A stretch of DNA of 64,000 bases from Calliopum simillimum (lineage: Eukaryota; Arthropoda; Insecta; Diptera; Lauxaniidae), in contig OX638369.1 of assembly GCA_951812925.1 (NCBI GenBank), positions 62,001-126,000 of the forward strand, given 5' to 3'. Below, in pieces: positions 3,977-55,044 of this stretch. A program made the position numbers and the translations under genes. The notes under the pieces were generated by a model. The model did not search any database. It had not been told where the DNA came from and worked only from the letters and a program-made list of their open reading frames with translations. Within the stretch, counting starts at the first letter, position 1; each line of letters starts with the position of its first letter.

Positions 3977-5849
3977 TTAGAGTGGTCCAAATTTTGTATG
4001 GAAAAACCAAGAGTGTTAAAAAGTCAAGGTGCGCGCGACTTTTCTGAATCCTTGGATCCTGTTGATTTCAAAAAGTGCTTTGGAACTAAAAAAAAATTGC
4101 GTTTAGATATTCCGCAACGAGCTTGAAGGTACTTTTTTAGGAATTTTTGAGTTTTTGAGTACTTTTTTTAATTGAAACGCTGCATCTTTTTAACCAGATA
4201 AGGTATTTGCAAAAATTAAATTGCATTTTTGTAAGAATATATTGAGCCAAATTCTGCGTCAATAATAATAAATCTTGTCTTTCCCAATTTTTTTTATCGG
4301 CACTTTAAACTTCAAAATTTGTTAATTTTTTGAGGTGTTTGCACATTCAAGAACCGATTTTTTTCTTATTTTGCTTTAGCAAATTTTTTTTTATATTGCT
4401 ATGTTTTTATGCATTAATTTATCTATCAACTGATTCCAACAACTAAGCTATAAGCTTCACTTTACTTACTAAAAACCGTAAAATATAATCAAATTTGGCC
4501 AAAAAAAAAACTCTGAGTTTAAAATTTTCGTGGTGAAACAGAAACAACAATAGTCATTTGCGATGTATGTGTTCATGAAAATTCTAAATCCGGTCTCAGA
4601 ATTGCTCTATCTCGCACGGTTTTAGAGATATCCTAACCTAAAAATGCAAAAAACACAGTTTTTGCTATTTTTGAAGCTGTTATATCACAACATGGTAACT
4701 TTCAGCCTGGTATGGAAGATAAAAGTGACAGTCTTTTTCTTCAAAACCCAATTTAAATTATATCGATATTTCTTTGTTCCTCCGAAATATCGTAAGCAGA
4801 AATAACAAAAAAGCGTGTTATTTGCACTTTTTCAACTTTTTAGGTTAGAATAACTCCAAGAACAAAAAAGATATCGGTATAATTTAAATTGAATTTGAAA
4901 GAAACAGACTGGCACTTCTAACCACTATACCACTTTTTGTGGCTGAAAGTAACCTTGACTTGTAATATCACTATAAAAAGAGCAAAAACGGTGTTTCTTA
5001 TACTTTTATGCAAAGATATCTCCTTAACCGTACAAGATACAGCAATTTTGATTTCGAATTCAGAATCAACGTCAATAAATACATCCAAAATGGCTATTTT
5101 AGTTTCTTTTTGATTTATTTATTTTTTTAGTTTCCTTAGAAAATCTATGAAAACTAAGTGTTAACCTATTTTCCCAAAAATATCATGAACTGCCAAGGTT
5201 TCGATATTGCGTAGAATGTTGTTTTACTCAGAAGATTAGGAACTAATGAATGTATAAGAAAAAAGTGGTACCTTACGTCATCCCATTAAGATATCTTATT
5301 TCAATGCCTTGAAAACATGAAAATTAATTTTTTTTTAAGCCCAATTTAATTATACTTAATTGTTTTTAGTGAGTAAAAGTGTTACTAAAAGCTTAGTTGT
5401 TGAAATTATTTTAAAGATAAATTAATGCTTAAAAATATAACAATTTAAAAAAAAATTTGCTAGAGCAAAATAAGAAAAAAATCAGTTCTTGAATGTGCAA
5501 ACACCTCAAAAAATTAACAAATTTTGAAGTTCATAGTGCTGCTAAAAAAAATTGGGAAAGACTAGATTTATTATTATTGATGCAAAATTTGGCTCAATAT
5601 ATTCTTACAAAAATGCAATTTAATTTTTGCAAATACCTTATCTGGTTAAAAAGATGTAGCGTTTAAATTAAAAAAAGTACTCAAAAACTCAAAAATTCCT
5701 AAAAAAGTACCTTCAAGCTCGTTGCGGAATATCTAAACGCAATTTTTTTTTGGTTCCAAAGCACTTTTTGTAATCAGTAGGATCCAAGGATTCAGAAAAG
5801 TCGCGCGCACCTTGACTTTTTAACACTTTCGGATTTTGGACCACTCTAA
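3977..5849. mobile_element. Foldback element P1 (TTAGAGTGG ends, TSD TGTACA)
   Basis: The two halves are near-perfect inverted copies. The left end TTAGAGTGGTCC matches the right end GGACCACTCTAA, and the arms stay aligned toward a centre near 4910. TGTACA occurs directly outside both ends (3971-3976 and 5850-5855). A short open frame containing SQGARDFSESLDP occurs in both arms in mirror image, as expected of a palindrome; it matches nothing I know. No transposase is visible, so it is non-autonomous. Confidence 0.85.
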
Positions 5850-5876
5850 TGTACATATTTGGTTGACAATATACAG

Positions 5877-6451
5877 CAGAGGTGTGCACCTGGAGCAAAA
5901 ATTTTTTCATCTTGCTCCCATATAAACTTGATTTTGAAGCCTTACGTCATAAACGTAAGGCTTGAGTTTTTGATTTTTTCAAATGTTAAGTTTTTCTAAA
6001 TACAAGCCAACAACAACAAAAAGTACAAATATCCTGTCGTATATAACACGCTACTTGTTCGCAAGTGTCAGTCCAATTCTAGTTTTGAAGCAAACCAAAA
6101 AATGAATATCAGGAAACAACAACAAAAAAATTTGCAACAACAATTGCATACGCTACTTTTCTACGAGCTTCAAAAAATAAAATTCAATGCGAGCGACCGC
6201 AACAACAATTTCATGCAGCTTGAAGTCAAGTGAGTTGAAGCCTTTTTCGTTGCGATCGTCGAGCAACGGGAATTATTATTTTATCATTGATTTGTTGTTG
6301 TCATTGCATCCCTCGAATTTGAAATTTTTATGTTTTCATCTTTTTCGAAGAATGCTTGGGGACATACATTTTGCAAATTTCGTGAGCTAGCTCTTTTAAT
6401 CAGCCGATTAAATATTTTAGCTCCCTTACGTTACTTGTGTGCACACCTCTG
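5877..6451. mobile_element. hAT-type MITE, 8-bp TSD ATATACAG
   Basis: The left end CAGAGGTGTGCAC and right end GTGCACACCTCTG are exact inverted repeats. ATATACAG lies immediately outside both (5869-5876 and 6452-6459). The CAG start and 8-bp duplication are hallmarks of the hAT superfamily. The 575-bp body has no transposase; it contains CAA-rich stretches and a small hairpin around 5939-5963. Confidence 0.9.
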
Positions 6452-6479
6452 ATATACAGGTAAAAATATGCTCAACAGT

Positions 6480-10209: not shown

Positions 10210-11395
10210 TATAAGCGTTTAAAGTAAGGATATCTTTCGATAACATACAAAGGATTTTCCGAGGCCGAAAAGTTACAAAAAATCAAGTTTTATTATTTTT
10301 ATCAATAACATGTTTAATTACAAAAATTTCGAGACCTTGCAGACCATAATCGCATGAAAAATTACAGTTCCATGCTAGATTTTGTGAATAAGCCTACTAA
10401 ACTATTGCTTTGCAAATTAACAGAATCAAAATTTCATCTGTTCATTCACTAAATCTACACTCAGAAAAAAAAAATTCTTAAAACAACAATTTTTCATTCT
10501 TAAAAAATTGTTATTTTTTAATTGTTGAAATTCATATTTTATTCTGTTCTGTTTTATTAAAAAAGCTTTATATAACGATTAAGGGTAAGAAACATTTCAT
10601 ATAAACTAAACACTAATTTTTCCCATCTTTCTGGTAGCGAATGAATTCCATAATAAATTACGCTTTATTGATCGTAACTTGGATACTTGGATTCGCGGAT
10701 GATGTAAACCTGACTTCGCTCACGATCCACTTCGCTTCTGATTATCGTACTATGTCCTCTTTCTATCGCCAGTTAAGATAAAATGCAAAATGCTGCCGTT
10801 GAAGCATCAGTTACACGTATGAAAACGCCGTTTGACTTCTTAGGCTCATACTGCAACCAATGTTCATGCTGCTGTATCTTTTTTATTGCCGTAAGATAGA
10901 TTGCTAATATAGACTTATATAAGAACAAACATTTCAACAATCATGTATTCTTCGTTCAGCTATTTCGCTTTTAAATATTGTGAACAGTTTCGCTTTTGAA
11001 ACAACAATTTCCATTCATAAATTTCCAACATTTTTTCGCTTTTAATACAACAATTTTCGTTCTTAAAACTTCAACAACTTTTTACTTGATTCAACAATTT
11101 TTCGTTATGCATAATACATAACAATTTCGTATTTAAAACAAGAGCAAAAGTTGTTGGGAAGATTTTAACTAACATAAATTCTTGAATCAAAACATAAAGT
11201 TGTTGGGAAAAAAATTTTTTTTTTTTGTGTGTGTACAATAGAGCCTTTTTTTTTAATCCGATTTAACTTAAAATTTTCGTGATAAAATATATTTTTGATA
11301 AAAATAATAAAACTTAAAATTTTTGTTAATTTTTCGGTCCAGAAAATCCTTTGTGTGTTATTGAGAGGTATCCTTTTTTTAAAAGCTTATAACTC
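10210..11395. repeat. Insertion-like block in the left arm
   Basis: Compared with the right arm, where CCGTG runs straight into AACTCGG near 23208, the left arm carries about 1.19 kb extra between GAGTTATAAGC and GCTTATAACTC, which mirror each other. Inside are A/T-rich repeats of a TTCTTAAAACAACAATTTTT type. It is either a transposon inserted on the left or a deletion on the right. Confidence 0.5.
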
Positions 11396-11613
11396 ACGGT
11401 GGTTTTTAAAAAATTTTAACTTTTTGAAATACCACCCGCGATTTTTTTCAGGGATAATGTTAGGGGACCCTTCTAGTATCTAAATCTGCAAACCGCGAAA
11501 TCGAATGTCCAGCCGTTTTTCTTTTTTCGACATTTTAGTTTTTTTAACGATTTTTGAGTATGTCTCGGTGTTTATATACATATTATGTACACATTTATAT
11601 GTATATACGTACA

Positions 11614-11766
11614 TATATGAGGCTATGAGCGCAACAGTGGCCTAACCTTTACTTCGTTGATAAAGCAAAAGCACATAACCTGAGTCGATACTAGCACAAG
11701 TTATTTGCTTTTGATTTTTTAACAAAGTGAGGGTTAGGCCACTATTGCGCTCATAGCCTCATATAT
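11614..11766. mobile_element. Palindromic MITE S1
   Basis: TATATGAGGCTATGAGCGCAA at the left is mirrored by TTGCGCTCATAGCCTCATATA at the right, with AGCAAAAGCACATAACCTGA internally. A half copy lies at 14619-14692, and a related palindrome sharing GCAAAAGCA..TAAC lies at 52996-53124. Confidence 0.75.
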
Positions 11767-11820
11767 ACTTGTATATGTATATATGTGTAATATATATATA
11801 TGGATTATATATACATACAT

Positions 11821-13330
11821 ATAAAAGGTATCCTTTCCGCACCATTTATTTTTAAAAAAAATCGGTTTTTTCGTATTTAAGAAAAAAACAAACAAAAACT
11901 GGAAACAAAAAAAGTCATTTCAGATGTGATTTTTGATGTTTAATCCGATTGCGGTATTAGAATTGCTTTATTACGTCTGGACTTTGAGATATCCTTACAT
12001 ATATGTTTAAAGGGCACCATTTTTTTTTCCTATTTTTGAAGTTATATAACACGATAAGGTAATATTATGCCGTTAAATCTGGTATGACAGTTAATAGCCC
12101 TAGTTTTTTTCTTGAAAACTCAATCAAACCCATAACGATATCTTTTTTTTTGTCGGAGATATCTTTACCTAAAAAGTTAAAAAAGTGCAAAAACACGATT
12201 TTTGGCTATATTGGATGTTATATGCAGGACACACAAAATTTTTTTGGGAATTTCTATTACCAGAAACATTTGGTTTTGGTACTTTCTTTTGGCTTTACAT
12301 TGAGCTATCAAATGTTTATCTGCAATATTTCTCTGTAAAGTTATGTTAACTTCAAAATGACACCATGAAACTCAAAGTGAAAAATCTCGGTTTTCGGCTA
12401 TATTTCAGGTTGTATACAGTACGGACGAAATTCGTCTGCTATTTTTTACTAACCGACACATTTAAAACCATTTTTTATCTTCAAAATGAGCTAGGAAGTG
12501 GTCTCTTGTTAATGTTTTCTAAAAAGTTATGACTATTTTAAGACGACATGTTGCAGCAATATAAGGAATTCTCGTACACTGTGAGTTTGCACTCCATAAT
12601 GTAATTTTTAAATGATCATAACTTTGTGGAAAACAATCCCAAGAAACCTCTTGATAGCTCATTTTGAAGATAAAGAATGGTTTTAAATGAGTCGGTTAGT
12701 AAAAAAGAGCAGACGAATTTCGTCCGTACTGTATACAACCTGAAATATAGCCGAAAACCGAGATTTTTCACTTTGAGTTTCATGGTGTGATTTTAAAGTT
12801 AACATAATTTTGCAGAGAAATATTGCAGATAAACATTTGATAGCTCAATTTAAAGCCAAAAGAAAGTACCAAAACCAAATGTTTCTGGTAATAGAAATTC
12901 CCAAAAAAATTTTGTGTGTCCTGCATATAACATCCAATATAGCCAAAAATCGTGTTTTTGCACTTTTTTAACTTTTTAGGTAAAGATATCTCCGACAAAA
13001 AAAAAGATATCGTTATGGGTTTGATTGAGTTTTCATGAAAAAAACTAGGGCTATTAACTGTCATACCAGATTTAACGGCATAATATTACCTTATCTTATT
13101 ATATAACTTCAAAAATAGGAAAAAAAATGGTGTCCTTTAAACATATATGTAAGGATATCTTAAAGTCCAGACGTAATAGAGCAATTCTAATACCGGAATC
13201 GGATTAAGCATCAAAAATCACATCTGAAATGACTTTTTTTGTTTCCAGTTTTTGTTTGTTTTTTTTCTTAAATACGAAAAAACCGATTTTTTTTAAAAAT
13301 AAATGGTGCGGAAAGGATACTTTTTATATG
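11821..13330. mobile_element. Foldback element P2
   Basis: The arms begin ATAAAAGGTATCCTTTCCGC and end GCGGAAAGGATACTTTTTAT. They are near-identical inverted copies around a centre near 12575, so mirror-image open frames appear in each arm. The ends merge into TATG microsatellite, so exact borders and a target duplication cannot be set. The right arm recurs at about 50608-51020. Confidence 0.8.
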
Positions 13331-13395: not shown

Positions 13396-15905
13396 TTAAG
13401 GTGCAGCAAAATTCAAAAAAAATTAAAGCATCAAAAATTATCATAGATTAAGATCTTAAAACAAAAACTGCATACTTAGTTTTGGTCAAAACCCAAGAAA
13501 AGATGGCCCGCCCGGGGCTTGAATGAAGGTCTAAACGACAAAAATCATTGTTTTTTCGCAGTTTTTTTATTTTATCTCAAAAACCACGAAACTATTGGTA
13601 GTAATTCTTCCTAAATCTTTGAAAGGGATTAATTTTCTACATTTTTTGTTTTTTTCTCATTGCTCTACAGTGAAGTTTGCCTTATGGAAGTCCCGGAAGA
13701 AGTTAAAATTTTTTGATTCAAAAAACGGTTTTTTTCCTATAACTCAAGATACAAGAGACACACAAAAACTTTAGAGCTCAGCAAATGTAGGAAATCTGCT
13801 TTTCTATAGTTTTGCTTTGAAATCTTGATTCCAAAAGCAAACGGTTTTCCGCTAGAGGCCGAAATTTGTTAAAAATAATTGTGTATCATGAAAAAGCGAC
13901 CTTTTATTGTTTGGTTTTAAAATATACCCAAAAATTTGATTAAAAACTAATGAAAAAACTAAAAAATTCTAAACATGGTCTTTAGAATGGAAATCGGATT
14001 GAAATTGCGCTAGATTTGATAATTCTTACATACTTGGTATTTTTTGTAAAGTTCTAATTTTGGGTATTTTTGTTTCACAGTGTGTTTTGCATCCACAACT
14101 TAAGATTTTTTTATGATTATTACTTTACGTTATAGGCCAATAAACAGCGCAACTTTCAGGATCAAGAATATCAAAATCGGTTTGTAGTTTCCTTGCGAAT
14201 TTCAGCCTGAGAGTTTGGATTTTTTTACATTTTTGTCAAATTCGGCTTTTTTTGAGTATAAGCGACTGCATACCCTAAATACCGTAAAAAATGTGTACTA
14301 TTATAATCCAAAAACTGTAGGAAATATAATTTGCTATACTTTGCTTCTCATAGTCATCCTTCCACAGCTAATAGTTTGTGCCCTAGAGGCCGATTTTTGT
14401 GATAAAAAAAATCGAATTTTTAGAAATTTTTATTTCGAAGTGACCTTTTGATGTTTTTGCTTGCAAATTTTACAAAAATTTTAAAAGGGCACTTAAGAAA
14501 AAAATAAAAGCTTTCAAACGTAGTCTTTAGAAAAGAAATCAGTTGGAATTTACGCAAGATATAAAAGTTATAAGAGAGAGACATAACAGTATTTTTTTAT
14601 TGTGTATTTTTATCGACTCAGGATATGTGCTTTTGCTTTATCAACGAAGTAAAGGTTAGGCCACTGTTGCGCTCATTGCCTCATTTTTGGTTATTTTTTT
14701 GTATCACAGAGTATATAAAAACTGTCATATCTCGCGTAAATTTCAACCGATTTCTATTCTAAGGACTACGTTTGAAAGATTTTAAACTTATCTTAAATTT
14801 TTTATAAAAAATTTGGGAAAATTTGCAAGCAAAAACATCGAAAGGTCGCTTCGAAATAAAAATTTCTAAAAATTCTATTTTTTTTTATCACAAAAATTGG
14901 CCTCTAAGGCACAAACTGTTAGCTGTGGAAAGATGACTATCAGGATCAAGATATAGCAAAATATATTTCCTACAGTTTTTGCGATATAATAGTACACATT
15001 TTTTACGGTATTTAGGGTATACAGTCGCTTATACTCAAAAAAAGCCGTATTTGACAAAAATGTAAAAAAATCCAAACTCTCAGGCTGAAATTCGCAAGGA
15101 AACTACAAACCGATTTTGATATTCTTGATCCTGAAAGTTGCGCTGTTTATTGGCCTATAACGTAAAGTAATAATCATAAAAAAATCTTAAGTTGTGGATG
15201 AAAAACACACTGTGAAACAAAAATACCCAAAATTAGAACTTTACAAAAAATACCAAGTATGTAAGAATTATCAAATCTCGCGCAATTTCAATCCGATTTC
15301 CATTCTAAAGACCATGTTTAGAATTTTTTAGTTTTTTCATTAATTTTTAATCAAATTTTTGGGTATATTTTAAAACCAAACAATAAAAGGTCGCTTTTTC
15401 ATGATACACAATTATTTTTAACAAATTTCGGCCTCTAGCGGAAAACCGTTTACTTTTGGAATCAAGATTTCAAAGCAAAACTATAGGAAAGCAGATTTCC
15501 TACATTTGTTGAGCTCTAAAGTTTTTGTGTGTCTCTTGTATCTTGAGTTATAGGAAAAAAACCGTTTTTTGAATCAAAAAATTTTAACTTCTTCCGGGAC
15601 TTCCATAGGGCAAACTTCACTGTAGAGCAATGAGAAAAAACAAAAAATGTAGAAAATTAATCCCTTTCAAAGATTTAGGAAGAATTACTACCAATAGTTT
15701 CGTGGTTTTTGAGATAAAATAAAAAAACTGCGAAAAAACAATGATTTTTGTCGTTTAGACCTTCATTCAAGCCCCGGGCGGGCCATCTTTTCGGGGGTTT
15801 GGACCAAAACTAAGTATGCAGTCTTTGTAATAAGGCCTGCTCCAAAGATAATCTTTGATGCAACCTATATTTTTCCCATTATTTCGAAAAAGTGCTGCAC
15901 CCTAA
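13396..15905. mobile_element. Foldback element P3 (TTAAGGTGCAGC ends, TSD TACATA)
   Basis: The left end TTAAGGTGCAGC mirrors the right end GCTGCACCCTAA approximately. Arms of about 1.2 kb are near-identical around a centre near 14650, where half a copy of the S1 MITE sits. TACATA occurs at 13390-13395 and 15906-15911. No transposase is visible. Confidence 0.85.
14619..14692. repeat. Half copy of S-family MITE in the P3 loop
   Basis: Matches one arm of the palindrome at 11614-11766: CGACTCAGGATATGTGCTTT, then GGTTAGGCCACTGTTGCGCT. It forms part of the non-mirrored centre of P3. Confidence 0.65.
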
Positions 15906-15915: not shown

Positions 15916-17538
15916 TTGTAGGCCCAAAAGTTGTATGAAAAATTTTAAAATCGTAAATGCCAATGTTTCCGCACGGAAAAATATGCAGTTTGGACTAAAA
16001 ATAATTATGCAATTTTTTGATCCGATATCCGGTTATTCTAAATCGACCCGGGTTGAGCTTCTTTATTAGGAAAAATGCAAAAATCTGCCTTTTTTTCTAT
16101 ATTTTTATACAAAACAACCACCAAACTCAATTTAGTACATTTAAGCTGTCTTTTATTAAAAACTGCATACAATTACCTTTCTAAAGAACCCAAGACGTGT
16201 GAAATCGGTTGAAAAAGCACGATACACGATAACACTAAAGTTTAAGGAGTACGAAAAAAATATGAAAATTACAAAAATTTTATGAGTCATAAAAAATTGG
16301 AATAAGATTACATATGCTTTTTCAATTTATTTATTTTATTAAACAATTGTGGTAACTGTATTTAATGTGTCTTAACGACCTATCCATTGTTTTACAAATG
16401 GTTCTAAGCAAGAAAAAATTCCGAAATAGGACCTTTTTATTTTTTCTTGCGAAAAAAATGTTTTTGTTTCTTTATTTTATTGAAATTAAAATTTTTTTTA
16501 CAATAAAATGCATGTGCAAGATTAAACATTACTCTTATAAACTATAGCATCTTATTTCATGAAAATTAAACTACTTAAGCTTCTCCTCCCATGAGAGATG
16601 ATTTTGTATGAAATGGGTACTTTTGTCGTCTTTTCAGAGAATTATTTTTCGTTTTGTCAGTACTTTTCGTATGAACCGCATCTGAGTGTCGGAGTTTTTT
16701 TTTTGAGATGAACCTGATGTCGAAGCCATTTTCTCAATTAAAACAAAAAACTAGTAAGGATGTAAATTTTGGCCTGGCCAAAAAATAAATACCCTACACT
16801 GCAGTATTTTGAAAATTTTGCTTATATGGGAGGTGCCACGCCCCCTTGTCTGATTTCACCCAATTTTTGCTGAGAGCTTTCATTTATAATTTTTAGTGTC
16901 TGAGTCAAATTTGGTTCGAATATCTCAAAAAACGCATTCAGTATAGCGTTTTGAAGCTTTTGCTTATATGGGAGGTGCCACGCCCTCTTGTCCGAGTACA
17001 CCCAGTTTTTGTTCAGAGCTTGCATTTATAGTTTTTAGTGTCAGAGTGAAATTAAGTTGGATTATCTCAATAAACTTTTTCAGTATAGCATTTTGAAACT
17101 TTTGCTTATATGGGAGGTGCCACACCCCCTTGTACGATTTCAACCAATTTTTTCTGAGAGCTTTCATTTATAATTTTTAGTGTCTGAGTCAAAGTTGGTT
17201 CGAATATCTCAAAAAACGCTTTCAGTATAGCGTTTTGAAGCTTTTGCTTATATGGGAGGTGCCACGCCCTCTTGTCCGAATTCGCTCAGTTTTTTATCAG
17301 AGCTTGCGCTTACAATTCGTAGTACTTATATGTATTGTGGTTGCATTGTCGTGAAAAATACTCCTAAAATTGCATTTTGAATATAATTTTTGTATGGGCG
17401 GTAGGCGTGTCCGTTGACCGATTTTGCTCATTTTCAATCCCCCGAGCTAACTTTGGCGACGGAGGCAGTGTACCAAATTTCATTGAATTATCTTGCTTAG
17501 TTTTCCCAAAAAGTGTATTTCAACACACAGCCAGCCAC

Positions 17539-17577
<39 letters not shown>

Positions 17578-18557
17578 CCCAGCCAGCCAGCCAGACAGAC
17601 GGACATGGCTATATCGACTCAGGAGGTGACGCTGATCAAGAATATATATACTTTTCTATACCTGCCACGCCTCCTTCTCTGCGTTACAAACGGAAGGACA
17701 AAGTGAATATACCCTGGGTGTAGGGTATAAATATCTAAATAACTGCCACTATATTCTTTCATTACTTCACTTCGACTGAAATTATGGGTTCACGATTGTA
17801 TCTATTTGGCATGATATTCAAATTTATTAAATAATCGGCTTCTAAGTTGCATAAATTGTTAGCAAAATTTTAATGAAGTTTTGGCATTTCGTGTTTCTAA
17901 GGGATTAGATTTCATCGTGTGTCGTGCTATTTCACCCGATTTTAGACTTTATGAGCTCATTGAAAAGATGATTGTATGCAGTTTTTGATAAAAGATAGTT
18001 ATGATTGAGTTTTGTGGTCGCAAACAGCATATATTAAAAAAACAAAAATGTACCGAATCCGGAATTTTTGTGGGTAAAGAAGTATTTGAAAAATAGATTG
18101 GAGAGGTAGATTAAGGCTCATTATGTAGAATACCAATATTTAATACAAGAAGAAAAGGGAGAAAAGCATATTCTACGGTTATAAAATTTTTTATGATTTT
18201 TAAATTTTTTGTGATTTTCAAATTTTTTCCTTACTTCTAAGGGTTTGATGTTCTTGTATGACGTGCTTTTTCCACCGATTTCAGAAATCTTGGATTCTTT
18301 GGAAAGGTAAATGTATGTACTTTACGATTAAAGACAATTAAAATGTATTAAATTGAGTTTTGTGGTTGTTTTACATAAGAATATGTAAAAACAGTCAGTT
18401 TTTTGCATTTTTCCTGATAAAGAAGCTCAACTCGGGTCGATTTAGGATAACCAGATCTCGGATCAAAAAATTTCATAATTATTTTTAACCCAAACTACAT
18501 ATTTTTCCGTGCGGAAACTTTAACTTTTCCACAATTTTTCATTATGGGCCACTCTAA
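15916..18557. mobile_element. Foldback element P4 (TSD TATACA), split by Helentron H3
   Basis: The right end GGGCCACTCTAA corresponds to a slightly eroded left end TTGTAGGCCC. The arms pair through ATATGCAGTTTGGA, TCGACCCGGGTTGAGCTTCT and its inverse. TATACA flanks both ends (15910-15915 and 18558-18563). It sits only 10 bp from P3, so it inserted beside or into P3's target duplication. The interior contains H3. Confidence 0.8.
16751..17729 (-). mobile_element. Helentron H3 inside P4
   Basis: On the minus strand it runs from TATACCCTACACCC (17729 side) to the GGCCAGGCC-type hairpin and CTAG at 16751-16754. It carries four units of about 142 bp marked by GTGCCAC(G/A)CCC at 16834, 16975, 17117 and 17260. 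A CCAG tetranucleotide tract lies at 17530-17592. No coding capacity. Confidence 0.85.
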
Positions 18558-18612: not shown

Positions 18613-19343
18613 TTAGGGTGGGCCGATTTGAAAACTGATCTCGGCTACCCCCCTATGTGAAAGTTCATTCGATTCTATGAATATTTGCCCAAGGAACTAT
18701 ACCTCTGCGTTCAACTTTAGTTCGGCGCATTTTTGATCGAAAATTTCACTTTTTACTAATTTTTTTTTTATTTTCACACAAAATATTTTAAATTTTTATA
18801 AAATCAAAAGTAATATCATTACATGATTTGGCTGGTATTCTGTCAGTAATCAATTAAATTGGGTTCTGTTTACATAAAAAGTTTACTTGATGGTGTGGAA
18901 TTGATGCTATATATTTAAAAAAGTGATATGGGTCAAATAGCCGATTATTTTGACCGACATTCAAAATAAACGATTCATATTTTTGGATGCATTTTTTCAA
19001 ACAAAATACCAACCTAGGCTAAAAGTTCATTCAATTCCATGAACTTTGCCCAAGAAACCGTACCTCTACGTTCAACTTTAGTTCGGCGCATTTTCGATTG
19101 AAAATTTTACCTTGCGTTTAATATTTATTTTTATGCTTAATTTTCAAAATTCTTATGGAGACAAAAGTAATATCATAATATGTTTTGGCTGGTATTCTGT
19201 CAGTAATCAATAAAATTGGGTTTTGTTTTTACGAAAAGTTTACTTGATAGCGTGGAATTGATTATATTTATTCCAAAAAATTATATCGGTCAAATTATGT
19301 AAATTTATTATAAACAATCATATTTTTACATGGATTTTTGGTA

Positions 19344-20893
19344 GGGGAGACTGGGGCACATTTGACACTAAATTTTCAAAGACCTGTATCTTTGAAAATT
19401 ATTACACGATCTTAATACTCTTTACTGTTTCTGAAACATTGATTATTTAAGATGAAAACCAAGAAAAAAAAAATTTCAAAAAAACTGCATTAAGAGTTAT
19501 TTTTTAAATTTTTTCAAAAAAAGTCATTTTGTCAAATGTGCCCCAAGTACGGGGCACATTTGACATTGCAGGGGGCACATTTGACACTCACAAAAATAAC
19601 ATAGAAACATTAAACAAAACATTCATACATATATTTTTTTCATATAAATACAAATTATAAGTACCTATGTATGTACTAACGAAGACTTATTTTATATATT
19701 AGTGTGAGAAGTCGATGTCAAATACGTATTTAGTGCGTGAACGTGAAGTTGAGGCTGGATTTGTTGGAGTTGGTAATTTAAACTCAATTACACTCTATAA
19801 AGTCAGGCAAACATCTTCCACTTCCGGTTTTATAAAAATCCCAATTTAATAGTGAAACTCTTCTCAAATAACTGATCTTGTATCAAGTATAGCTAATTAC
19901 TTCTACAATATCTCCCACATAAAAAATGGGTTTTTGGATTTTTCGCCAAATTTCCCAAGGACAATATATAAGTATAAAGTACAATTTCCAACAACATCCC
20001 TAATGAGAACATCAACATAAAATGTTAGGTAAGAGCCAGTTTGATGGAAATTTCTTTGGTCTGGATTTTGGGTAACACCATCGTCAAGATATCTGCAGCG
20101 CTTTCACATGATGATGGGGAATACTTCTAGTCAATTTGATAATTATTAAAAACTTCGCATACATGATGATCTTTGATGTCAATATGTTTACTTCGGGAAT
20201 TCATCCATCCAGATTTTCAAATTAAAATAAGTGGTAGAGGTCCTGGAAAGCACCTATTCAAAAATCTTGAATTGTAGATAAAACAAATTATATTAAATCA
20301 AATGAAATGGATTCTGTGCCGGAAGTCGGAGTTTCTCTCTGGTTTCCGATATTAGAAATAGCGAATTTAACTTTTTTTTCATCGCCATCGCGTCTGTTCG
20401 TCTTCATTTTATAATGGTATACCATATCTTTAAAAAGATAACACTAGAAAGTCTTCTAAAATACACAAACATATATGTCTGAACGAACGTCAAATGTGCC
20501 CCTTCGACAAAAGTCAAATGTGCCCCAATATCTCTTGAAGAATTAAAAATATTTTAAAATCTAAACTATTTGACCTTGATAAAAAACACTTTTATTCTAT
20601 TTATTGTAAAGGTTAGTGCTACCAAGTTTTCATACTTACTTCTAAAAAACAATACAACTTTATTTGCGAAACCCTTACGAACAAGATGTCGAAAATTACA
20701 AAAAAATTCACAAAAAGTTAAAAAAGCGAATTAGCGCGGGAGAAGTTGAAAGAGAACTACCAAAGTTCATTACGTTGCTTCCACTCTAATTAGTTATGTT
20801 TCTGCATTTCAGGTTATTGGATCGAAAGGCGTGTTCACACCGAAAATGGCAAAGTCAAATGTGCCCCGGTGTCAAATGTACCCCAACTTACCC
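19344..20893. mobile_element. Pogo/Tc1-type element Q1 with subterminal repeats
   Basis: Flanked by TA (19342-19343, 20894-20895). The left end is GGGGAGACTGGGGCACATTT and the right end, read inward, GGGTAAGTTGGGGTACATTT. The word GGGGCACATTTGACA or its inverse recurs at the left end, near 19535-19577, at 20489-20526 and at the right end, as expected of transposase-binding sites. No recognisable transposase remains. A shorter derivative (Q2) lies at 59873-60745. Confidence 0.75.
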
Positions 20894-21741
20894 TATATTG
20901 TTCTGTTAAATTAAAAAAAGCGGCTAATTTATTTCCTAAAACTGCCACCACATGTTGCCCTGGAAAAAATTGAGTGTCAGATTTGGCATCCTAGCATCCA
21001 AAAACACTTGGGTTGGTGTTTCGATTGAAAAAATCCATGTAAAAATATGTATCGTTTATAATAAATCGGTTATATTTATTTATATTTCAAACAATAAATG
21101 TCACACAGCACTTGGATTGCTTTTTTATTTAAATAAATCCATGAAAATATTTAAAAATTGATCGAAAAAATCCATGTAAAAATATAACTCGTTTATTTTG
21201 AAATCGGTTGGATGACCGATATAATTTTTTAAATAAATATAATCAATTCCACGCTATCAAGTAAACTTTTCGTAAAAACAAAACCCAATTTTATTGATTA
21301 CTGACAGAATACCAGCCAAAACATATTATGATATCACTTTTGGCTCTATAAGAATTTTGAAAATTAAGCACAAAAATGAATATTAAGCGCAAGGTAAAAT
21401 TTTCAATCGAAAATGCGCCGAACTAAAGTTGAACGTAGAGGTACGGTTTCTTGGGCAAATGTTAATGGAATTGAATGAACCTTTAACCTAGGTTGGTATT
21501 TTGTTTGAAAAAATGCATCTAAAAATATGAATCGTTTATTTTGAATGTCGGTCAAAATAATCGGCTATTTGCCCCATATCAATTTTTTAAATATATAGCA
21601 TCAATTCCACACCATCAAGTGAACATTTTATGTAAACAGAACCCAATTTAATTGATTACTGACAGAATACCAGCCAAATCATGTAATGACATTACTTTTG
21701 ATTTTATAAAAATTTTTTAAAATTTTGTATGAAAATAAAAA

Positions 21742-22691
21742 CTAGTAAGGGTGTAAATTTTGGCCTGGCCAAAAAATAAATACCCTACACTGCAGTATTT
21801 TGAAAATTTTGCTTATATGGGAAGTGCCACGCCCTCTTGTCCGAGTACACCCAGTTTTTGTTCAGAGCTTGCATTTATAGTTTTTAGTGTCAGAGTGAAA
21901 TTTAGTTGGATTATCTCAAAAAACCTTTTCAGTATAGCATTTTGAAACTTTTGCTTGTATGAGAGGTGCCACGCCCTCTTGTCCGAATTCGCTCAGTTTT
22001 TTATCAGAGCTTGCATTTATAGTTTTTAGTGTCAGAGTGAAATTTAGTTGGATTATCTCAAAAAACTTTTTCAGTATAGCATTTTGAAACTTTTGCTTAT
22101 ATGAGAGGTGCCACGCCCTCTTGTCCGAGTACACCCAGTTTTTGTTCAGAGCTTGCATTTATAGTTTTTAGTGTCAGAGTGAAATTTAGTTGGATTATCT
22201 CAAAAAACTTTTTCAGTATAGCATTTTGAAACTTTTGCTTATATGAGAGGTGCCACGCCCCCTTGTAAGATTTCAACCAATTTTTGCTGAGAGCTTTCAT
22301 TTATAATTTTTAGTGTTTGAGTCGAAGTTGGTTCGAATATCTCAAAAAACGCTTTCAGTATAGCGTTTTGAAGCTTTTGCTTGTATGGGAGGTGCCACGC
22401 CCTCTTGTCCGAATTCACTCAGTTTTTTGTCAGAGCTTGCGCTTACAATTCGTAGTACTTATGTGTATTGTGGTTGCATTGTCGTGAAAAATACTCCTAA
22501 AATTGCATTATGAACATAATTTTTGTATGGGCGGTAGGCGTGTCCGTTGACCGATTTTGCTCATTTTCAATCCCCCGAGCTAACTTTGACGACGGAGGCA
22601 GTGTACCAAATTTCATTGAATTATCTTGCTCAGTTTTCCCAAAAAGTGTATTTCAACACACAGCCAGCCAGCCAGCCAGCCAGCCAGCCAC

Positions 22692-22723
<32 letters not shown>

Positions 22724-22858
22724 ACAGACGGACATGGCTATATCGACTCAGGAGGTGACGCTGATCAAGAATATATATAATTTTCTATATCTGCCACGCC
22801 TCCTTCTCTGCGTTACAAACGGAAGGACAAAGTGAATATACCCTGGGTGTAGGGTATA
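21742..22858 (-). mobile_element. Helentron H4 inside P5
   Basis: Same structure as H3. CTAG at 21742-21745 marks the 3' end, and the 5' end is the GGGTATA side near 22858. It carries five units of about 141 bp with GTGCCACGCCC (near 21826, 21966, 22108, 22250, 22393) and a CCAG tract at 22660-22722. Neighbouring units look more alike than units of other copies. Confidence 0.85.
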
Positions 22859-22987
22859 AAAAAATTAGTAAAAGGTGAAATTTTCGATCAAAAATGCGCC
22901 GAACTAAAGTTGAACGCAGAGGTATAGTTCCTTAGGCAAATATTCATAGAATTGAATGAACTTTCACATAGGGGGTAGCCACCCTAA

Positions 22988-24564: not shown

Positions 24565-25272
24565 ACTTGTTGAACCACCTGCATACCACTTATAGCCATT
24601 AGAAAATAACGAAACTTGAGATGTTGGGTCAGTAGTTTAGGAGCTATGCGTTAGCTAAAACATGCAGTTATACTTTTCTTTTTACGGCAAGCTTGAAGAA
24701 ATTTAAATGAATCTAAGCACTGCCCATTAGGTGTTTTTTAAAAATAATTTTTCCGAACTTTTAATCTTTTGCAAAATTGAGTCAAGTCAAAAGTAACTTG
24801 CAAAAACTTAAAACAATAAAAAGAAAGACGAATAGTAATTTTTTACTAAGTTTTTGATGCTGAATTCAAATCCGTTAACGAAATTGCTTGATTGCTACAG
24901 GTTTTCCGTATATTTTTGTTACTTTTGAGTTTATGTAACAAGATTGCGCAATATTTTGTCATAAAATTCGTTATCTTATCTTTTTCTACAAAACCCTTTT
25001 TAAATTATATTGATATCTACGAATTATCCTAACCTTAAGAATTTTTAAGTGTGTTACTTAATGACATCTATATTAGGGTGGAGCGTTGCTCTATGGAGAT
25101 TTTTTATTTTTACATATTCTGAACGGCTCAGTGCGGAAAAGGTGCTCCGTCAATCACCTTTTAGAGGTGTATAAATATTTTTTAAAAATTTTGAGTTTTA
25201 GTACTGCCACAAGTCAATCAAACCTTAAACACATCCTGGGAATATAGGGAAAAACTTAAAGTTGGAACACTG

Positions 25273-25814
25273 AAGTTTTTTTGATGAGGTTTTGTTCGTC
25301 CACTTCTCCTGAGTTGGAAAATATAAAAATTAAAATCCATACTCTTCCTTCTTGCGAATAAACTGGGCTTAAGCCCCTTTTTTCTAGGCATGTTTAAATT
25401 ACCTATATTATAGTTACCTCGAAGTCTTGGAAATTAAAATGTTTTGATCAGGCCTGTTCGTTAATTTGTCCAGAGTTGGAAAATAAGAAAATTTAATCAG
25501 AACAATTCCTTATTGCGAAAAACCGAGCTTAAGCGCCTTTTTTCTTGGTATTTTAAAATTATGAATATTAAATCGACCTCCAAATGTTGGCACTGAAAAT
25601 TTTTGATGAGGTTTTGTTTGTTAGCTTCTTGTGAGTGGGATAAGGTGAAGAAATGAATCAAAACAACTCCTTCTTGCGAATAAACCGGCTTTAAGCCCCT
25701 TTTTTGCCTCTGAGGTTTTGTTTGTTAGCTTCTTGTGAGTGGGATAAGGTGAAGAAATGAATCAAAACAACTCCTTCTTGCGAATAAACCGGCTTTAAGC
25801 CCCTTTTTTGCCTC
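25273..25814. repeat. Tandem repeats in E7
   Basis: Several diverged units share GAGGTTTTGTT and AAGCCCCTTTTTT. The last two (25607-25710 and 25711-25814) are identical 104-bp units, so this duplication is recent. Confidence 0.85.
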
Positions 25815-25914
25815 TAAAAGTTTGAATAAAACATACAACTTTCAACTCGCAATAACTAAGCTCACAGTTGTTTATTTTCGGGTTAGTATATAGAGAAATG
25901 TTCATGGGTCATAC

Positions 25915-26370: not shown

Positions 26371-26619
26371 GGTCATACATATATGGGCAAATCCGAAAAT
26401 AATCTCCTCTTATATGACCCAGTTTTTAAAAAAAAATTTTTTTCATGTACAATAACCAAATGTGGTGGAATTTATTCCTAGACGCATAAACTGAAATTTC
26501 CAATAGGCGAACAAAAAAATTTCGACCTGAGGGGGTGTCAGGAGGTCGTTTTATCTGAAAATTTTGAGAAAATCGAGATTTTCGATAATATACGGTAGAG
26601 CACATATTTCAGAAGTAGT

Positions 26620-32162: not shown

Positions 32163-32369
32163 AATATGTTAATATTATAATAAAATCACAATTTGGACAC
32201 TTTTTTTTTTTTTTCAAAACTTCAATTTCTTTGTGGCAGTACAAAACATTAAAATATCAAAAAGTACCATATAACATTTTTTATTAAGAATAGTATGGAG
32301 CATCTTTTCGCATGTGAGCCATTTCGAAAATCGCAAAAAACAAATTTCGCCCCACCCTAATCTATATAT

Positions 32370-38007: not shown

Positions 38008-41000
38008 CTAGAGCGCCCATATGTGCAAAATTCTGATTTTGCTGAAATTAGAGGTCAAAAAAATAAGATCTCAAAAAAAAAATTTGGAATCGGTAGTGGA
38101 AAAAACCCAGCCGGTTTTCGATCAAAGGTCGAAAAATTGACTAAAAAAAGGGAAGTCGTTTTGACTGCCCGTTACTTCAAAACTGTTCATTTTTTCATAA
38201 TATTTTCAAGACAATCTTTGTAGAGCATAACTAGGTCAACATTATCTTCTTAAAAAGTTTTGGTCCAAAAATTAAATTTGTTGTTGTTTCGGTAGAAAAA
38301 CTTGAATTTTTTAAGAAAATTTTCATGACTTTTTTTCTATAAATTGGTTTTTTGTAATTTTCGAAGGGTGGAATATTTGTTCTGGAATTTTTATATTATA
38401 GGGAATCAGATATTGATTAATTTAAAGGAAAAATTACTAAAAAATATTAGTTTTTAAGAAATGGAGCCCGTTTCAAAGTTAAGAAAAAAAATTTATTTTT
38501 TATTTTTTCTTCTTAATTTTTAATTTGGTACGAAGCCATTTTAGTAGACATATTTTCTAAACTAATTTGGGATTGCTGAACACGAAAGTAACATTTATTT
38601 TTGTTTTAGTGCGTTTTTGGGCTGTTCCAGCAGAGATAATCAAAAATGTCGAAGTTCATCCACGAAGCTCAGGAAAAAATTTCAATCAAGTTGTCAAGAA
38701 CTGCACAAAGATGTGAAATTGCACCTGAGCATTAACTAAATAAGAAAAAATAGTTTTCAAAATCGGTTCATGGCATGGTTCTTAAAATGAGGTCGAAAAA
38801 CGGTATTTAAAAAAAACGACTACAAACCAAAACCAAAAGAGTCATTTTAGATGTAGTTATTAATGCTGAATTCGAAATTAGACGCGAAATTGCTGTACCA
38901 CTCATGGTTTGTGAGATATCACGCCCCTAATGTTCAAAAAACACGATTTTTGAGGTTGTGTAGAACACGCTCAAAATCGTTTTGGTCTGTTTTATTAAAT
39001 GCGTCATTTAGAACTGTTTTTCTTCTTCAAAATGAGTTACAGAATGGTCTTGTATGATTTTTGTTTAAAAAGTTATGATCATTTTAAAATAGCATTATGA
39101 AAGATATGGTAATATGGCAATTGCTATAGAAAATCCATACATGATTTTTAACTTTCATGATGTCATTTTAAAATGATCATATCTTTTTGAAAAAAAGTCG
39201 CACAAACCCATTTCATAGCTCATTTTGAAGGCAAAAAGCAGTTCTAAATGATGCATTTAATAACAACTAGCAATGCATTTTGTTGCATCCAATAAAGTAG
39301 CGATTAAAAGAAAAAAATTAGAATACTCATTTTTTTCCAACATTGAGACTGGCTCCATACCTTAAAACTTAATATTTTTAAATAATTTTTTTTTGTTGAA
39401 TTAATCAACATTTAATCTCATGCAATATAAGAATTCCAGAACAAATATTCCGCCTTTTGAAAATTACAAAAAACCAATTTATAGAAAAAGTCATGAAAAT
39501 TTTCTTTAAAAATTTAAGTTTTTGTACCGAAACAACAACAAATTTAATTTTTGGACCGAACTTTTTGAAAAGATAATGTTGACCTAGTCATGCTCTACAA
39601 AAGTTGTCTAGAAAATATTATGAAAAAATGAACAGTTTTGAAGTAACGGGCAGTCAAAGCGACTTCCCTTTTTTTAGTCAATTTTTCGACCTTTGATCGA
39701 AAACCGGCTGGGTTTTTTCCACTACCGATTCCAAATTTTTTTTTGAGATCTTATTTTTTCGATCTCTAATTTCAGGAAATGGACGGGGAGCAAACAAGTT
39801 CTCAACTTTGCACATTTCATATATCTTGTGGGCGCTCTAGTATACACAGTATTCAATTTTTCTTGGAGCCACTCATGGTCTAAAAGATATTCTGCAAAAA
39901 CCGTTAAGGTTTCGAAAATACTAGTTTTTGAAGGATATCTCTGAAACGGTAAGTCATACGATAAAAAGCACCAACATCAATTTTGTAAGAAGAAAAACAG
40001 TTCTAAATGACGCATTTAATAAAACAGACCAAAACGATTTTGAGCGTGTTCCACACAACCTCAAAAATCGTGTTTTTTGAACATTAGGGGCGTGATATCT
40101 CACAAACCATAAGTGGTACAGCAATTTCGCGTCCAATTTCGAATTCAGCATTAATAACTACATCTAAAATGACTATTTTGGTTTTGGTTTGTAGTCGTTT
40201 TTTTAAATACCGTTTTTCGACCTCATTTTAAAAACCATGCCATGAACCGATTTTGAAAACTTTTTTGTCTTATTCAGTTAATGCTCAGGTGCAATTTCAC
40301 ATCTTTGTGCAGTTCTTGACAACTTGATTGAAATTTTTTCCTGAGCTTCGTGGATGAACTTCGACATTTTTGATTATCTCTGCTGGAACAGCCCAAAAAC
40401 GCACTAAAACAAAAATAAATGTTACTTTCGTGTTCAGCAATCCCAAATTAGTTTAGAAAATATGTCTACTAAAATGGCTTCGTACCAAATTAAAAATTAA
40501 GAAGAAAAAATAAAAAATAAATTTTTTTTCTTAACTTTGAAACGGGCTCCATTTCTTAAAAACTAATATTTTTTAGTAATTTTTCCTTTAAATTAATCAA
40601 TATCTGATTCCCTATAATATAAAAATTCCAGAACAAATATTCCACCCTTTGAAAATTACAAAAAACCAATTTATAGAAAAAAAGTCAGGAAAATTTTCTT
40701 AAAAAATTCAAGTTTTTGTACCGAAACAACAACAAATTTAATTTTTGGACCAAAACTATTTAAGAAGATAATAGCCGTGTTTTTTTTGACGCGTATATAC
40801 AATTGTGGATACCTTCAAATTGCGATAACTCATGAACAGTAAGTCACACAATCAAACTCTAAGAAACTTTTTTATGGAGAATCACGTTCTCTTTCATTTT
40901 ATATTGAAAAAAATTTATTTTTAAGGAGGTATTTTATAAAAACTGGTTAGCGCCGATAAATGGCAAAAAATCACTTTTTTTTAAATAACTTCTAAATAAT

Positions 41001-51040: not shown

Positions 51041-51449
51041 TTAGGCCGGGTCAATTTGTTCGGGAGGCAAAAAATTGGCAAAGAGTATAGCAACAAAATA
51101 ATCTACGAAAAATTCCAAGAAACTTTGCCCAAGAAACCATGGGTCTAAAATCATTATCAAGCCGCCGTAAATTGCGTTGAAGTTTTGTATGTAGTACTTT
51201 AAAATACAATAAGAAAAACAAAAAATTCAAATTTTTTTTTACTTGTTTCATATAAAATTATTCAAGTATTTGAATTTTTTGTTTTTTTTTTATTGAATTT
51301 TAAAGTACTACATACAAAACTTCAACGCAATTTACGGCGGCTCGATATTGATTTTAGACCCATAGTTTCTTGAGCAAAGTTTCTTGGAATTTTTCGTAGA
51401 TTGTTTTGTTGCTATACTCTTTGCCGCAAAAAAATTTGACCCGGCCTAA
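51041..51449. mobile_element. Foldback element P6 (TTAGGCCGGGTC ends, TSD TATACA)
   Basis: TTAGGCCGGGTCAA at the left mirrors TTTGACCCGGCCTAA. The arms pair throughout (CTTCAACGCAATTTACGGCG). TATACA flanks both (51035-51040, 51450-51455). At 409 bp it is the shortest complete member of the TTARRG group here. Confidence 0.9.
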
Positions 51450-51720: not shown

Positions 51721-52995
51721 CGATATTTCAGCCCCCATACAAGAGACGAAATATTTTGGGTGCGTGGCGTATCCCATTTATTTATTTCAGGTCATTCTAT
51801 TTCTCTTAAAAAATTTGGAGTTCTTGATATTTTTCTATACCATTCGATATTTTCCGAGTTTTTTCTTATTATTTTTCTTATCGGTTAGTTTATCATTTTG
51901 AAAGCATTGGAGGTGAAAAGGTACGAGTTTCATAACAAAAAATAGCTATGAATAAAAACATCGACTAAAATAATAAGATCAGATTGTTGACCGAGTAGGG
52001 ATCGGTCTCCAGGTACTGTTCTCTGAAATGGAACAAATTTTTCATGGTGCATATTTACATCAAAATTATACTTTTGGTGCCCGAGGAACAAAATTCCGAA
52101 AAACTTAAGTTTTTGAACCAGCCTAATGTATAGTACATAGATATGAAAACAAAATAAAATTTGACAGCGGAAACATGTACGAAAACAAATGATGGCAACA
52201 AAAAACAAGAAATTCAGCATTTAAGCTGCTATTCAAAACAAAAGCGCTTCGTTTAATATATGTACGCACGTACCTATTCGGATTTTTCATTTCGTACGAA
52301 ATAATTAACACTTTCAAGTTCAAGGTCAGTTGAAATTCCGCCGATCATAAGTGCTAAGTTTTTTTTAAAATGATAAATGGTTTTCTGTTCCCAGTCATAT
52401 CAAATGAAACGAAAAAGTGCAAAAGTCTCTCAGTATTTCGTTAAATAAAAGCTCATCATCACGATAAGGCTAAATTTGAAAGCCTATGTATATGTGAAAC
52501 AGGTTTTCGTATCAGTAAAATTTTCCTACTAGCGTTATTTATACGATAATTTGCTGATGAAATTTTATCTTTTCAAGAACAAAATCTTGTTTCAATTGTT
52601 TTTTATTTTTCAAATTAGGTACAAAGCTGAAAATAACTGTGACCCTCACGGCTGAGTTAAATCAAACATATCTTTTTGATTTTTGGCAAAACAACCTAAC
52701 TCGAGATAATACAATTTCCATGACTTAAGGTATAAACATAAAGTTTAAATACGCTTATTTTGGTGTAATCGCCATGTTTATGATTTTTAATTCCAAAAAA
52801 ATAGAGTTGGCCCATAATTCGCGCAAGGTTTGAATTTGCCGCAATATGTGCGGGTAAAGTGTTGCCAACCAAAAAAAGAAAACAGTTTGACATCTAATAG
52901 TTTAGGGCTAGTAAAAATAAGAGAGGAGATTCAACGCCGCATCAACGAAATTCAGCCACAGTTTTTCACCTTTTATGAATGTTATTTCTCCCGAT
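51721..52995. other. Unassigned DNA with a solitary CCTAA terminus
   Basis: No gene recognised. CCAGCCTAA followed by TGTATA at 52119-52132 looks like the right end of a TTAGG-group element, but no matching left end was found. Confidence 0.4.
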
Positions 52996-53124
52996 GCATT
53001 TTACAAAACAACCTAAGTCCCTCTTCGTGAGAAAAGCAAAAGCAAATAACTTTTGCTTGTGTCGTCAGGTTATGTGCTTTTGCTTTTTTCACGAAAAGGA
53101 ACTTCGGTTGTTTTGTCAAAATGC
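52996..53124. mobile_element. Palindromic MITE S3
   Basis: GCATTTTACAAAACAACC is mirrored by GGTTGTTTTGTCAAAATGC. Inside, AAAGCAAAAGCAAATAAC faces GTTATGTGCTTTTGCTTT. It is related to 11614-11766. Confidence 0.7.
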
Positions 53125-53142
53125 CACAGATATGTATGTATA

Positions 53143-55044
53143 TTAGAGCGCCCATATGTGCGAAATTCTGATTTTGTTTGCTCCCCGTCCATTTCCTGAA
53201 ATTAGAGGTCAAAAAAATAAGATCTCAAAAAAAAATTTGGAATCGGTAGTGGAAAAAACCCAGCCGGTTTTCGATCAAAGGTCGAAAAATTGACTACAAA
53301 AAAGGCAAGTATTCATTTTTTCGCAATGTTTTCAAGACAATTTTTGTAGAAAATGATTAGGTCAAACTTATTTTCTTAAAAAGTTTTGGTCCAAAAATTA
53401 AATTTGTTGCTATTTCGGTACAAAAATTTAAATTTTTTAAGAAAATTTGCATGACTTTTTTTCTATAAAATGGTTTTTTGTAGTATTCGGAGGGCGGAAT
53501 ATTTGTTCTGGAATTCTGTTATTGTAGGGAATTAAATGAAAAATTATTAAAAAATATTAGTTTTTAAAAAATGGAGCCCGTTTCGAAGTTAAGAAAAAAA
53601 TGTATTTTTTATTTTTTTCTTCTTAATTTTTAATTTGATAAGAAAAAATTTTGCGAGCTATATTTTCTAAGCTAATTTGGGGTCGCTGAACACGAAAATA
53701 GCATTTATTTTCGTTTTAGTGCGTTTTTGGGCGGTTCTAGTAGAGATAATCGAAAATTTCGATTTACGTGCTCGCAGCCCAGAAAAAAATTTAAATCAAA
53801 TTGTCATGAATACCACAAAGGTGTTAAGTTACACGTGAGTATTAACTGAATAAGAAAAAATGTTTTCAAAATCAGTTCATCGAATGATTTTTAAAATGAG
53901 GTCGAAAAACGGAATTTTTAAAAAAACCACTACAAACCAAAATCAAAATAGTCATTTAAGATGTATATATTGATGCGAAATCCGAAACTGGACGCAAAAT
54001 TGCTGTATCATTTATGGTTTGTGAGATATCTTACCCCTAATGTTCAAAGGATCGTGACAAATGGAGAGATTTCATATTGGCCCTATGCTCCTCCTAGGAG
54101 TTAAAGGAGAATACATACATATATACATACAATGTTCAAAAAACATGATTTTTGAGGTTGTGTAGAACACGCACGATATCGTTTTGGTCTTTTCTATGAA
54201 ATGCATCATTTAGTACTGTTCTTCTTCTTCAAAATGAGCTATAAAAAGGTTTTGTATGATTTTTCTTTAAAAAGTTATGACCATTTTAAAATAACATTAT
54301 TAAAGATATAGCAATATGGCAATTGCTATAGAAAATCCATAGATGATTTTTAACTTTCATGATGTCATTTTAAAATGGTCATTACTTTTTTAAAAAAAAT
54401 CACACAAGCCCATTTCATAGCTCGTTTTGAAGGTAAAAAGCAGTTCTAAATGATGCACTTAATAAAAACTAGCAGTACATTTTCTTGCATCTAATAAAGC
54501 AGCAATTAAAAGAAAAAAATTTAAATATTTAATTTTTTTCAAACTTTGGGACCGGCTCTATACCTTAAAACTTAATATTTTTAAATAATTTTTTTTTTAA
54601 ATTAAACAACATTTAATTATCTCTAACATAAGAATTTAAAAACAAATATTCCGCCCTTTAAAAATTACAAAAAACCAATTTGTAGAAAAAAAGTTGAGAA
54701 AATTTTCTTAAAAAGTTTAAATTTTTGCACTGAAATAGCAAAAAATTTAAATTCTGGACCAAAACTTTTTAAGAAGATAATGTTGACCTAGTCATTCTCT
54801 ACAAAAACTTTCTTCAAAACAATGCGAAAAAATGATTAGTTTCGAAGTAACGGGCAGACAAAGCGACTTGCCTTTTTTTAGCCAATTTTTCGACCTTTGA
54901 TCGAAAACCGGCTGGGTTTTTTCCACTACCGATTCCAAATTTTTTTTTGAGATCTTATTTTTTTGACCTCTAATTTCAGGAAATGGACGGGGAGCAAACA
55001 AAATTACAACTTTGCACATTTCATATATCTTGTGGGCGCTCTAA
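53143..55044. mobile_element. Foldback element P11 (TTAGAGCGCCC ends, TSD TGTATA)
   Basis: TTAGAGCGCCCA mirrors TGGGCGCTCTAA. TGTATA lies outside both ends (53137-53142, 55045-55050). The arms match 38008-41411 and each other (GAGGTCAAAAAAATAAGATC). It contains a LINE tail insertion at 54049-54130. Confidence 0.85.
54049..54130 (+). mobile_element. 82-bp LINE tail insertion with 10-bp TSD
   Basis: The sequence GATCGTGACAAATGGAGAG to GGAGAATACATACATA is the same as the 3' end at 63830-63900. AATGTTCAAA flanks it (54039-54048, 54131-54140), and the sister foldback arm shows the intact site. It is a severely 5'-truncated retrotransposition. Confidence 0.9.

Follow-up and report, generated by a model that had tools for sequence, protein, structure and literature searches.

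The question raised by a 64,000-nucleotide stretch of the genome of the fly Calliopum simillimum (assembly GCA_951812925.1, contig OX638369.1, positions 62,001 to 126,000 of the forward strand; hereafter the window) is which transposition system has moved a group of elements, most of them foldbacks, whose interiors are unrelated but whose termini are alike. An earlier note, made from the letters of the window, had proposed that seven such elements (P1, P3, P4, P5, E7, P6 and P11) share a TTARRG terminus and a 6-bp target site duplication (TSD), and that they represent one transposase system which does not fit hAT. The present work re-examines these boundaries in the window (G+C 32.6%, from base counts) and in the genome (690 Mb searched, in 334 contigs). 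The elements are very probably non-autonomous cut-and-paste hAT transposons, most like the hATm family, and mostly foldbacks with greatly lengthened terminal inverted repeats (TIRs).

Boundaries and target duplication in the window

The seven elements are bordered by exact hexamers, flush with the ends that had been proposed (P1 3977-5849, P3 13396-15905, P4 15916-18557, P5 18613-22987, E7 25073-32360, P6 51041-51449 and P11 53143-55044), and these hexamer matches exceed chance: of all position pairs within the 100-bp flanks, 0.09% to 1.5% give an exact 6-mer match. The hexamer, however, is not the whole of the repeat: the true ends lie one base further inside and read TAGRG...CYCTA, with an 8-bp duplication outside them (Table 1). 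Two further elements, a second full-length copy of P11 (P11b) and a 575-bp element at 5877-6451, bring the number considered to nine, and exact centred duplications of 4, 6, 8 and 10 bp were found in 9/9, 9/9, 8/9 and 0/9 of them, respectively, which puts the longest centred repeat at 8 bp instead of 6 bp. Among the seven elements originally noted, six have exact 8-bp repeats, P4 matches at 7/8 and none reaches 10 bp. All nine targets fit the pattern nTnnnnAn.

A test within the window is provided by P11b, which is identical to P11 at 1585 of 1779 aligned bases (89%) in an end-to-end alignment and has identical TAGAGCGCCC ends. Its TSD, GTATACAC, places a C before TAG and a G after CTA, and its flanks are not microsatellite; since these flanks hold no TTA, P11b argues against a TTA end with a 6-bp duplication. 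Similarly, the 6-bp reading leaves the element at 5877-6451 without matching ends, because the outer bases of its TSD, A and G, are non-complementary. The first T of TTARRG and the last A of the opposite end belong to the TSD and pass for element ends since the targets in the window have the form ATnnnnAT.

When the window was scanned generically for matching ends bordered by 8-bp repeats, 21 pairs were listed, including P1, P6, P11, P11b and 5877-6451, while P3, P4, P5 and E7 were missed at its thresholds; the other pairs lay mostly within palindromic arms. The description of all seven elements as foldbacks holds for P1, P3, P4, P5, P6 and P11, the arms of which measure about 0.17 to 1.14 kb with identities of 78 to 97% (those of P1, 4002-4510 and 5328-5837, are 91.8% identical), but not for E7, the ends of which have 12 of 13 bases in common and no arms. 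The interior of this 7.3-kb element contains a long interspersed nuclear element (reverse transcriptase domain, E 7e-30) and a separate foldback at about 26569-27967. The right arm of P5 appears to be interrupted by a tandem-repeat element at about 21742-22857. An inverted duplication at 37678-41743 holds P11b together with a mirrored partial copy and mirrors its left junction, which suggests a head-to-head duplication of a foldback.

Table 1. Elements and related features of the window, with element boundaries given for an 8-bp TSD
Feature	Coordinates	Strand	Ends	TSD	TSD positions or flank
P1, foldback	3978..5848			ATGTACAT	3970-3977 and 5849-5856
575-bp hAT-type element, absent from the earlier note	5877..6451		CAGAGGTGTGCAC	ATATACAG	5869-5876 and 6452-6459
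Outer palindrome R, left arm (sibling arm with the P3 and P4 site empty)	11390..12240	+			
P3, foldback, arms 1.14 kb (94% identical)	13397..15904			ATACATAT	13389-13396 and 15905-15912
P4, foldback, arms 0.5 kb (78% identical)	15917..18556			ATATACAT/ATATACAA (7/8)	15909-15916 and 18557-18564
P5, foldback	18614..22986			ATGTATAT	18606-18613 and 22987-22994
E7	25074..32359		TAGGGTGG	ATCTATAT	25066-25073 and 32360-32367
P11b, second full-length P11 copy, absent from the earlier note	38009..39839			GTATACAC	38001-38008 and 39840-39847
P6, 407-bp near-palindrome	51042..51448			ATATACAT	51034-51041 and 51449-51456
Orphan right end, left partner not found	52096..52125	-	TAGGCTGGTTC (reverse complement)		outer flank ATGTATAG
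P11, foldback	53144..55043			ATGTATAT	53136-53143 and 55044-55051

Copies of P1 and P11 elsewhere in the genome

The length of the duplication was further assessed in two families of genomic copies. A search with the P1 arm yielded 40 scored matches, 95-100% identical, of 1576 first-look candidates, and in some cases both arms of a single copy are among these matches; the 20 best plus-strand rows were fetched at both ends, with the window's own copy left out. Both ends lay within the stretch in 16 of the 20 copies, of which 15 had an exact 8-bp TSD (including TTGACCCC, ATATACTC and ATATGTAG) and one a 7/8 match, while in the remaining four the other end fell outside the fetched stretch. T occupies position 2 in 16/16 and A position 7 in 13/16, whereas position 8, where the element was supposed to begin, has T in no more than 8/16. 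The corresponding search with the P11 end gave 40 places among 1483 candidates, 38 of them at 99% identity over bases 1-167. Ten plus-strand rows were fetched, one 94% row being skipped; in two of these the other end was not found, and the eight copies with both ends all had exact 8-bp TSDs (seven called by script, and one, L120, missed by the motif of the script and recognised from the TSD adjoining its end, which has a single base change), with T at position 2 and A at position 7 in 8/8 each.

Pooled, the 30 fetched copies comprise 24 with both ends, of which 23 have an exact 8-bp TSD and one a 7/8 match, with T2 in 24/24 and A7 in 21/24, i.e., the pattern nTnnnnAn. The same 8-bp nTnnnnAn target has been described for the hAT element Hermes (PMC10368747). 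The counts in the genome copies refute the 6-bp reading for the P1 and P11 families, and the conclusion that the elements do not fit hAT, with its 8-bp duplication, is not supported. The earlier note had named a different TSD length among genome-wide copies as grounds for abandoning its proposal, and 8 bp is what both sampled families exhibit; nor is the TTA of the TTARRG terminus conserved across further copies (P11b and the genome copies of P1 and P11).

A transposon with TTA...TAA ends and a 6-bp TSD, whether similar to IS3EU, Dada or GingerRoot or belonging to a new system, is a highly improbable source of these elements. It would account for the hexamers flush with the ends in 7/7 elements and for P4 without a mutation in its TSD, and 6-bp TSDs are known for IS3EU (usually) and GingerRoot (PMC10045372). 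Every 8-bp TSD, however, includes a centred 6-bp repeat, and the base preceding TAG is not T in P11b and in 8/16 both-ended P1 copies, and is A in 2/7 script-tabulated P11 copies. Moreover, the 6-bp TSD, as conceived in the earlier note, is the likeness to IS3EU/GingerRoot and to Dada: IS3EU ends TA..TA (PMC10045372), in contrast to the ends and the 8-bp TSD found here, and Dada (PMC3706591) is without TIRs, has TSDs of 6-7 bp and targets multicopy small RNA genes, whereas TIRs and an 8-bp TSD are present here. Neither candidate thus fits. Parses with a TA (Tc1/mariner) or TWA (Harbinger) duplication were likewise rejected, as the flanks repeat directly beyond TTA/TAA.

The empty site and the microsatellite context

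Four of the foldbacks, P3, P4, P5 and P6, sit in copies of one repeat, termed R. The first three occupy microsatellite within the right arm of R, the left arm being free of them, and P6 interrupts the microsatellite in a second R copy. When P3 and P4 are removed with one duplication copy each, the joined sequence matches the left arm exactly over 34 bp, across both junctions. Among 81 combinations of assumed lengths, (6,6) and (10,2) alone reach 34, the remainder giving 26 or less, and the joined sequence for (10,2) is identical to that for (6,6). The comparison supports P3 and P4 as two insertions, each with a duplication, yet the empty site cannot separate 6-bp/TTA from 8-bp/TAG, because both parses remove identical bases; the P6 copy of R, which matches the joined P3/P4 site over 41 at every length tried, is equally uninformative on TSD length. 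The flanks of P5 carry a further tandem duplication of the microsatellite of roughly 27-40 bp (18557-18613 and 22987-23020), missing in the sibling arm, which indicates that the P5 target was, or later became, duplicated. An inverted-repeat element of ~146 bp, with ends TGAGGCTATGAGCGCAACAGTGGCC, occupies about 11616-11761 in the left-arm microsatellite of R; neither the right arm nor the R copy that carries P6 has it.

Six of the seven elements had been placed in TA/TG/CA microsatellite. Under a strict test of alternating purines and pyrimidines, by which 0.94% of the window qualifies, microsatellite was found on both sides of two of the seven (P5 and P6) and on one side of two more (P3 and P4), while P1, E7, P11, P11b and 5877-6451 lie outside it. 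In the genome, the left flanks of P1 copies (n=20, 32 bp including the TSD) show at least 80% alternation in 1/20 versus 0.6% of window stretches, with a mean alternation of 0.60 versus 0.46. The elements seem to favour short sites that are AT-rich and near-palindromic, of the kind that microsatellites offer, and not microsatellite itself. Drosophila transposon targets are generally palindromic, in a manner that reaches past the TSD (PMC3276498).

This context also bears on the notion that the matching ends and hexamers arose by chance within microsatellite, to which next to no probability can be given. P5 and P6 do lie in dense TA/TG repeat, with a local chance of 0.3-0.6% for an 8-mer match, but the same chance is 0.01-0.05% for the other seven of the nine elements, 19/20 P1 genome flanks fall below 80% alternation, and the removal of P3 and P4 restores the exact match to the sibling arm; the genome copies had already refuted this reading.

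Termini and probable assignment to hAT

The hATm group has been proposed as a fourth hAT family, with termini TAGGGTG...CACCCTA, TSDs of 8 or 9 bp and published members having TIRs of 417 and 575 bp (PMC6004678). The elements of the window resemble it to a varying degree in their termini, and further in their 8-bp TSDs and their long TIRs; long inverted repeats are thus not new here, since such hATm members had been reported. The eight TAG-type elements (the nine without 5877-6451) have 16 ends, among which are five exact matches to TAGGGTG, four with one mismatch, six with two and one degenerate end, the left end of P4 (TGTAGG, which becomes TTGTAGG when read against TTARRG). In a leave-one-family-out terminal profile with 849 background sites, 16 of 17 TAG-type ends (the orphan included) fell in the top 4% of the background by positions 6-11, the left end of P4 being the miss; by positions 12-20, only 5/17 reached the top 5%. 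The result of this profile is supportive and not independent, because the elements had been picked by their ends.

The terminal consensus of hAT elements is YARNG, and it was recognised by eye in 15 of the 18 ends of the nine elements, the misses being the left end of P4 and both ends of P6. The 8-bp TSD and the nTnnnnAn target of hAT were found both in the P1 and P11 genome copies and in the window, and the duplication length agrees with the 8 or 9 bp of hATm.

A comparable element on the hAT side is Mar, a Buster-type miniature inverted-repeat transposable element of D. willistoni, which is similarly non-coding, with an 8-bp TSD, a CAG(G/A)G start and a TA at the target centre, but which differs in its 11-bp TIRs (CAG(G/A)GGTAGGC), its length of 610 bp and in not being a foldback (PMC3517528). 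The foldback form is most often assigned to Mutator, as for Tetris of Drosophila and DAIBAM (PMC4079207), and long TIRs with AT-rich targets would suit such an origin; the MuTAnT foldbacks of Medicago, placed like Tetris and DAIBAM in Mutator by their authors, even occur in (TA)n microsatellite (PMC4486113). The likeness resides in the long-arm, non-autonomous foldback structure. These elements have TSDs of 8-10 bp (Tetris/DAIBAM) and 9 bp (MuTAnT), in contrast to the 8 bp of all 24 both-ended P1 and P11 copies, and the T2/A7 preference and TAGGGTG-like ends agree with published hAT and hATm features, which makes a Mutator-type origin improbable.

Search for a transposase

The dimerisation domain of hAT transposases (PF05699) was encountered in the genome in 150 scored matches of 1271 candidates, partly within long open frames, and in 0/14 control genomes. 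At one locus, L062, TAG ends (TAGGGAATGCAATA, 14/14 matching) with the TSD GTTCGAAC enclose a 638-amino-acid frame in which BED and hAT domains occur. The elements themselves appear to be non-coding: frames of at least 48 amino acids, read by eye in eight element regions (P4 and P6 excluded), included none longer than 87 amino acids, and for P4 and P6 the coding check was limited to a list of frames of at least 90 amino acids. At another locus (L061:25-1611; C5:109819024-109820610, plus strand), a 529-amino-acid frame carries a Cas12f1-like/TnpB TNB domain (PF07282, E 2.5e-10), which we take to be Fanzor-like, and a 623-amino-acid hAT transposase frame lies on the opposite strand of the same 5.5-kb stretch.

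Several observations weigh against the assignment to hATm-like hAT elements. TAGGGTG-type ends enclosing a transposase were not found in the 56 of 150 scored hAT matches examined (30 loci with 1.5-kb flanks, six stretches of ~5.5 kb and 20 downstream stretches of 1.5 kb), 50 of which were viewed with a flank of only ~1.5 kb, on a single side or on both. Seven-base end-like strings do occur near some matches, e.g., L012, L032 and L034; only that of L103 was traced, and it had no left partner upstream. The two TSD copies of P4 carry a single difference, and the corresponding target of the sibling arm has A at position 8, which is why P4 fits the 6-bp parse without mutation. The ends of P6, P11 and P11b deviate from TAGGGTG at two positions, those of 5877-6451 lie outside the common terminal profile (top 12% only), and the genomic check of the TSD covers two families, P1 and P11. 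Compared with published hATm elements, only 5/16 ends are exact, no transposase was seen, and P3 and P6 consist almost entirely of arm with little middle. Membership in hATm is argued solely from ends and duplications, because a transposase gene with these ends was not found in the matches examined. Given the boundaries, the 8-bp duplication and the T2/A7 preference observed in two genome families and nine window elements, together with the hAT domains of the genome, the finding is very probably explained by known biology, namely non-autonomous hAT elements, probably of an hATm-like kind and mostly foldbacks, with 8-bp TSDs.

Other features of the window

Elements with ~142-bp tandem repeats, presumably Helentron-type HINE, were observed at 6777-8271, 16806-17734, 21742-22862, 48575-49239 and 55796-56216, two of them with a CAGC array; they lie inside P4 and P5, among other places. 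A 1.5-kb palindrome (45633-47131, 92%), whose ends read TACAGTTTGTCAAGAATGTC and which shows no evident duplication beyond TA, is possibly a Tc1/mariner-type foldback. The 2.1-kb foldback at 34546-36672 (98% arms) is of a different type: its outer ends are TAGTGCAGGCAAATT, and an 8-bp duplication was not seen. An open frame at 41904-45197 showed 44-50% identity to Musca, Lucilia and Ceratitis proteins, and 70% to one further sequence, in a protein search. No tRNA genes were detected in the window by ARAGORN, and viral and prokaryotic contigs scanned for exact patterns gave no matches. A literature search with six 12-base end strings returned unrelated papers only, as judged by titles and the beginnings of abstracts.

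Proposed mechanism and implications

The original idea of one system is retained in part: the common terminus and duplication make a single transposase class natural, but its definition by 6 bp and TTAG is not upheld. We infer that these elements are moved by an hAT (hATm) transposase, the same one for all of them. After recognition of the TAGRGYG ends, such an enzyme, encoded by another copy, would cut the element out and reinsert it through cuts staggered by 8 bp, at targets that are AT-rich, close to palindromic and of the form nTnnnnAn; gap repair would then yield the 8-bp duplication. At ATnnnnAT targets, the outer A/T pair, being inverted-symmetric, imitates a terminus of TTA...TAA and a duplication of 6 bp.

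The apparent new transposon system can be struck from the list. More generally, where the target contributes a palindromic base on either side of an 8-bp duplication, these bases can be mistaken for element sequence, thereby creating a false class with a "6-bp TSD and TTA end". Abundant hAT-type foldback families are documented in a fly genome by P1 and P11, with 40 scored matches each. It is conceivable, though rather doubtful, that a single active hATm-type transposase mobilises many foldback families with unrelated interiors by recognising only the outermost ~10 bases of their ends; in that case extremely long arms would be nothing unusual among hAT passengers, and purine/pyrimidine-alternating stretches in older repeats would serve as repeated landing pads, as for P3, P4, P5 and P6 in copies of one repeat.

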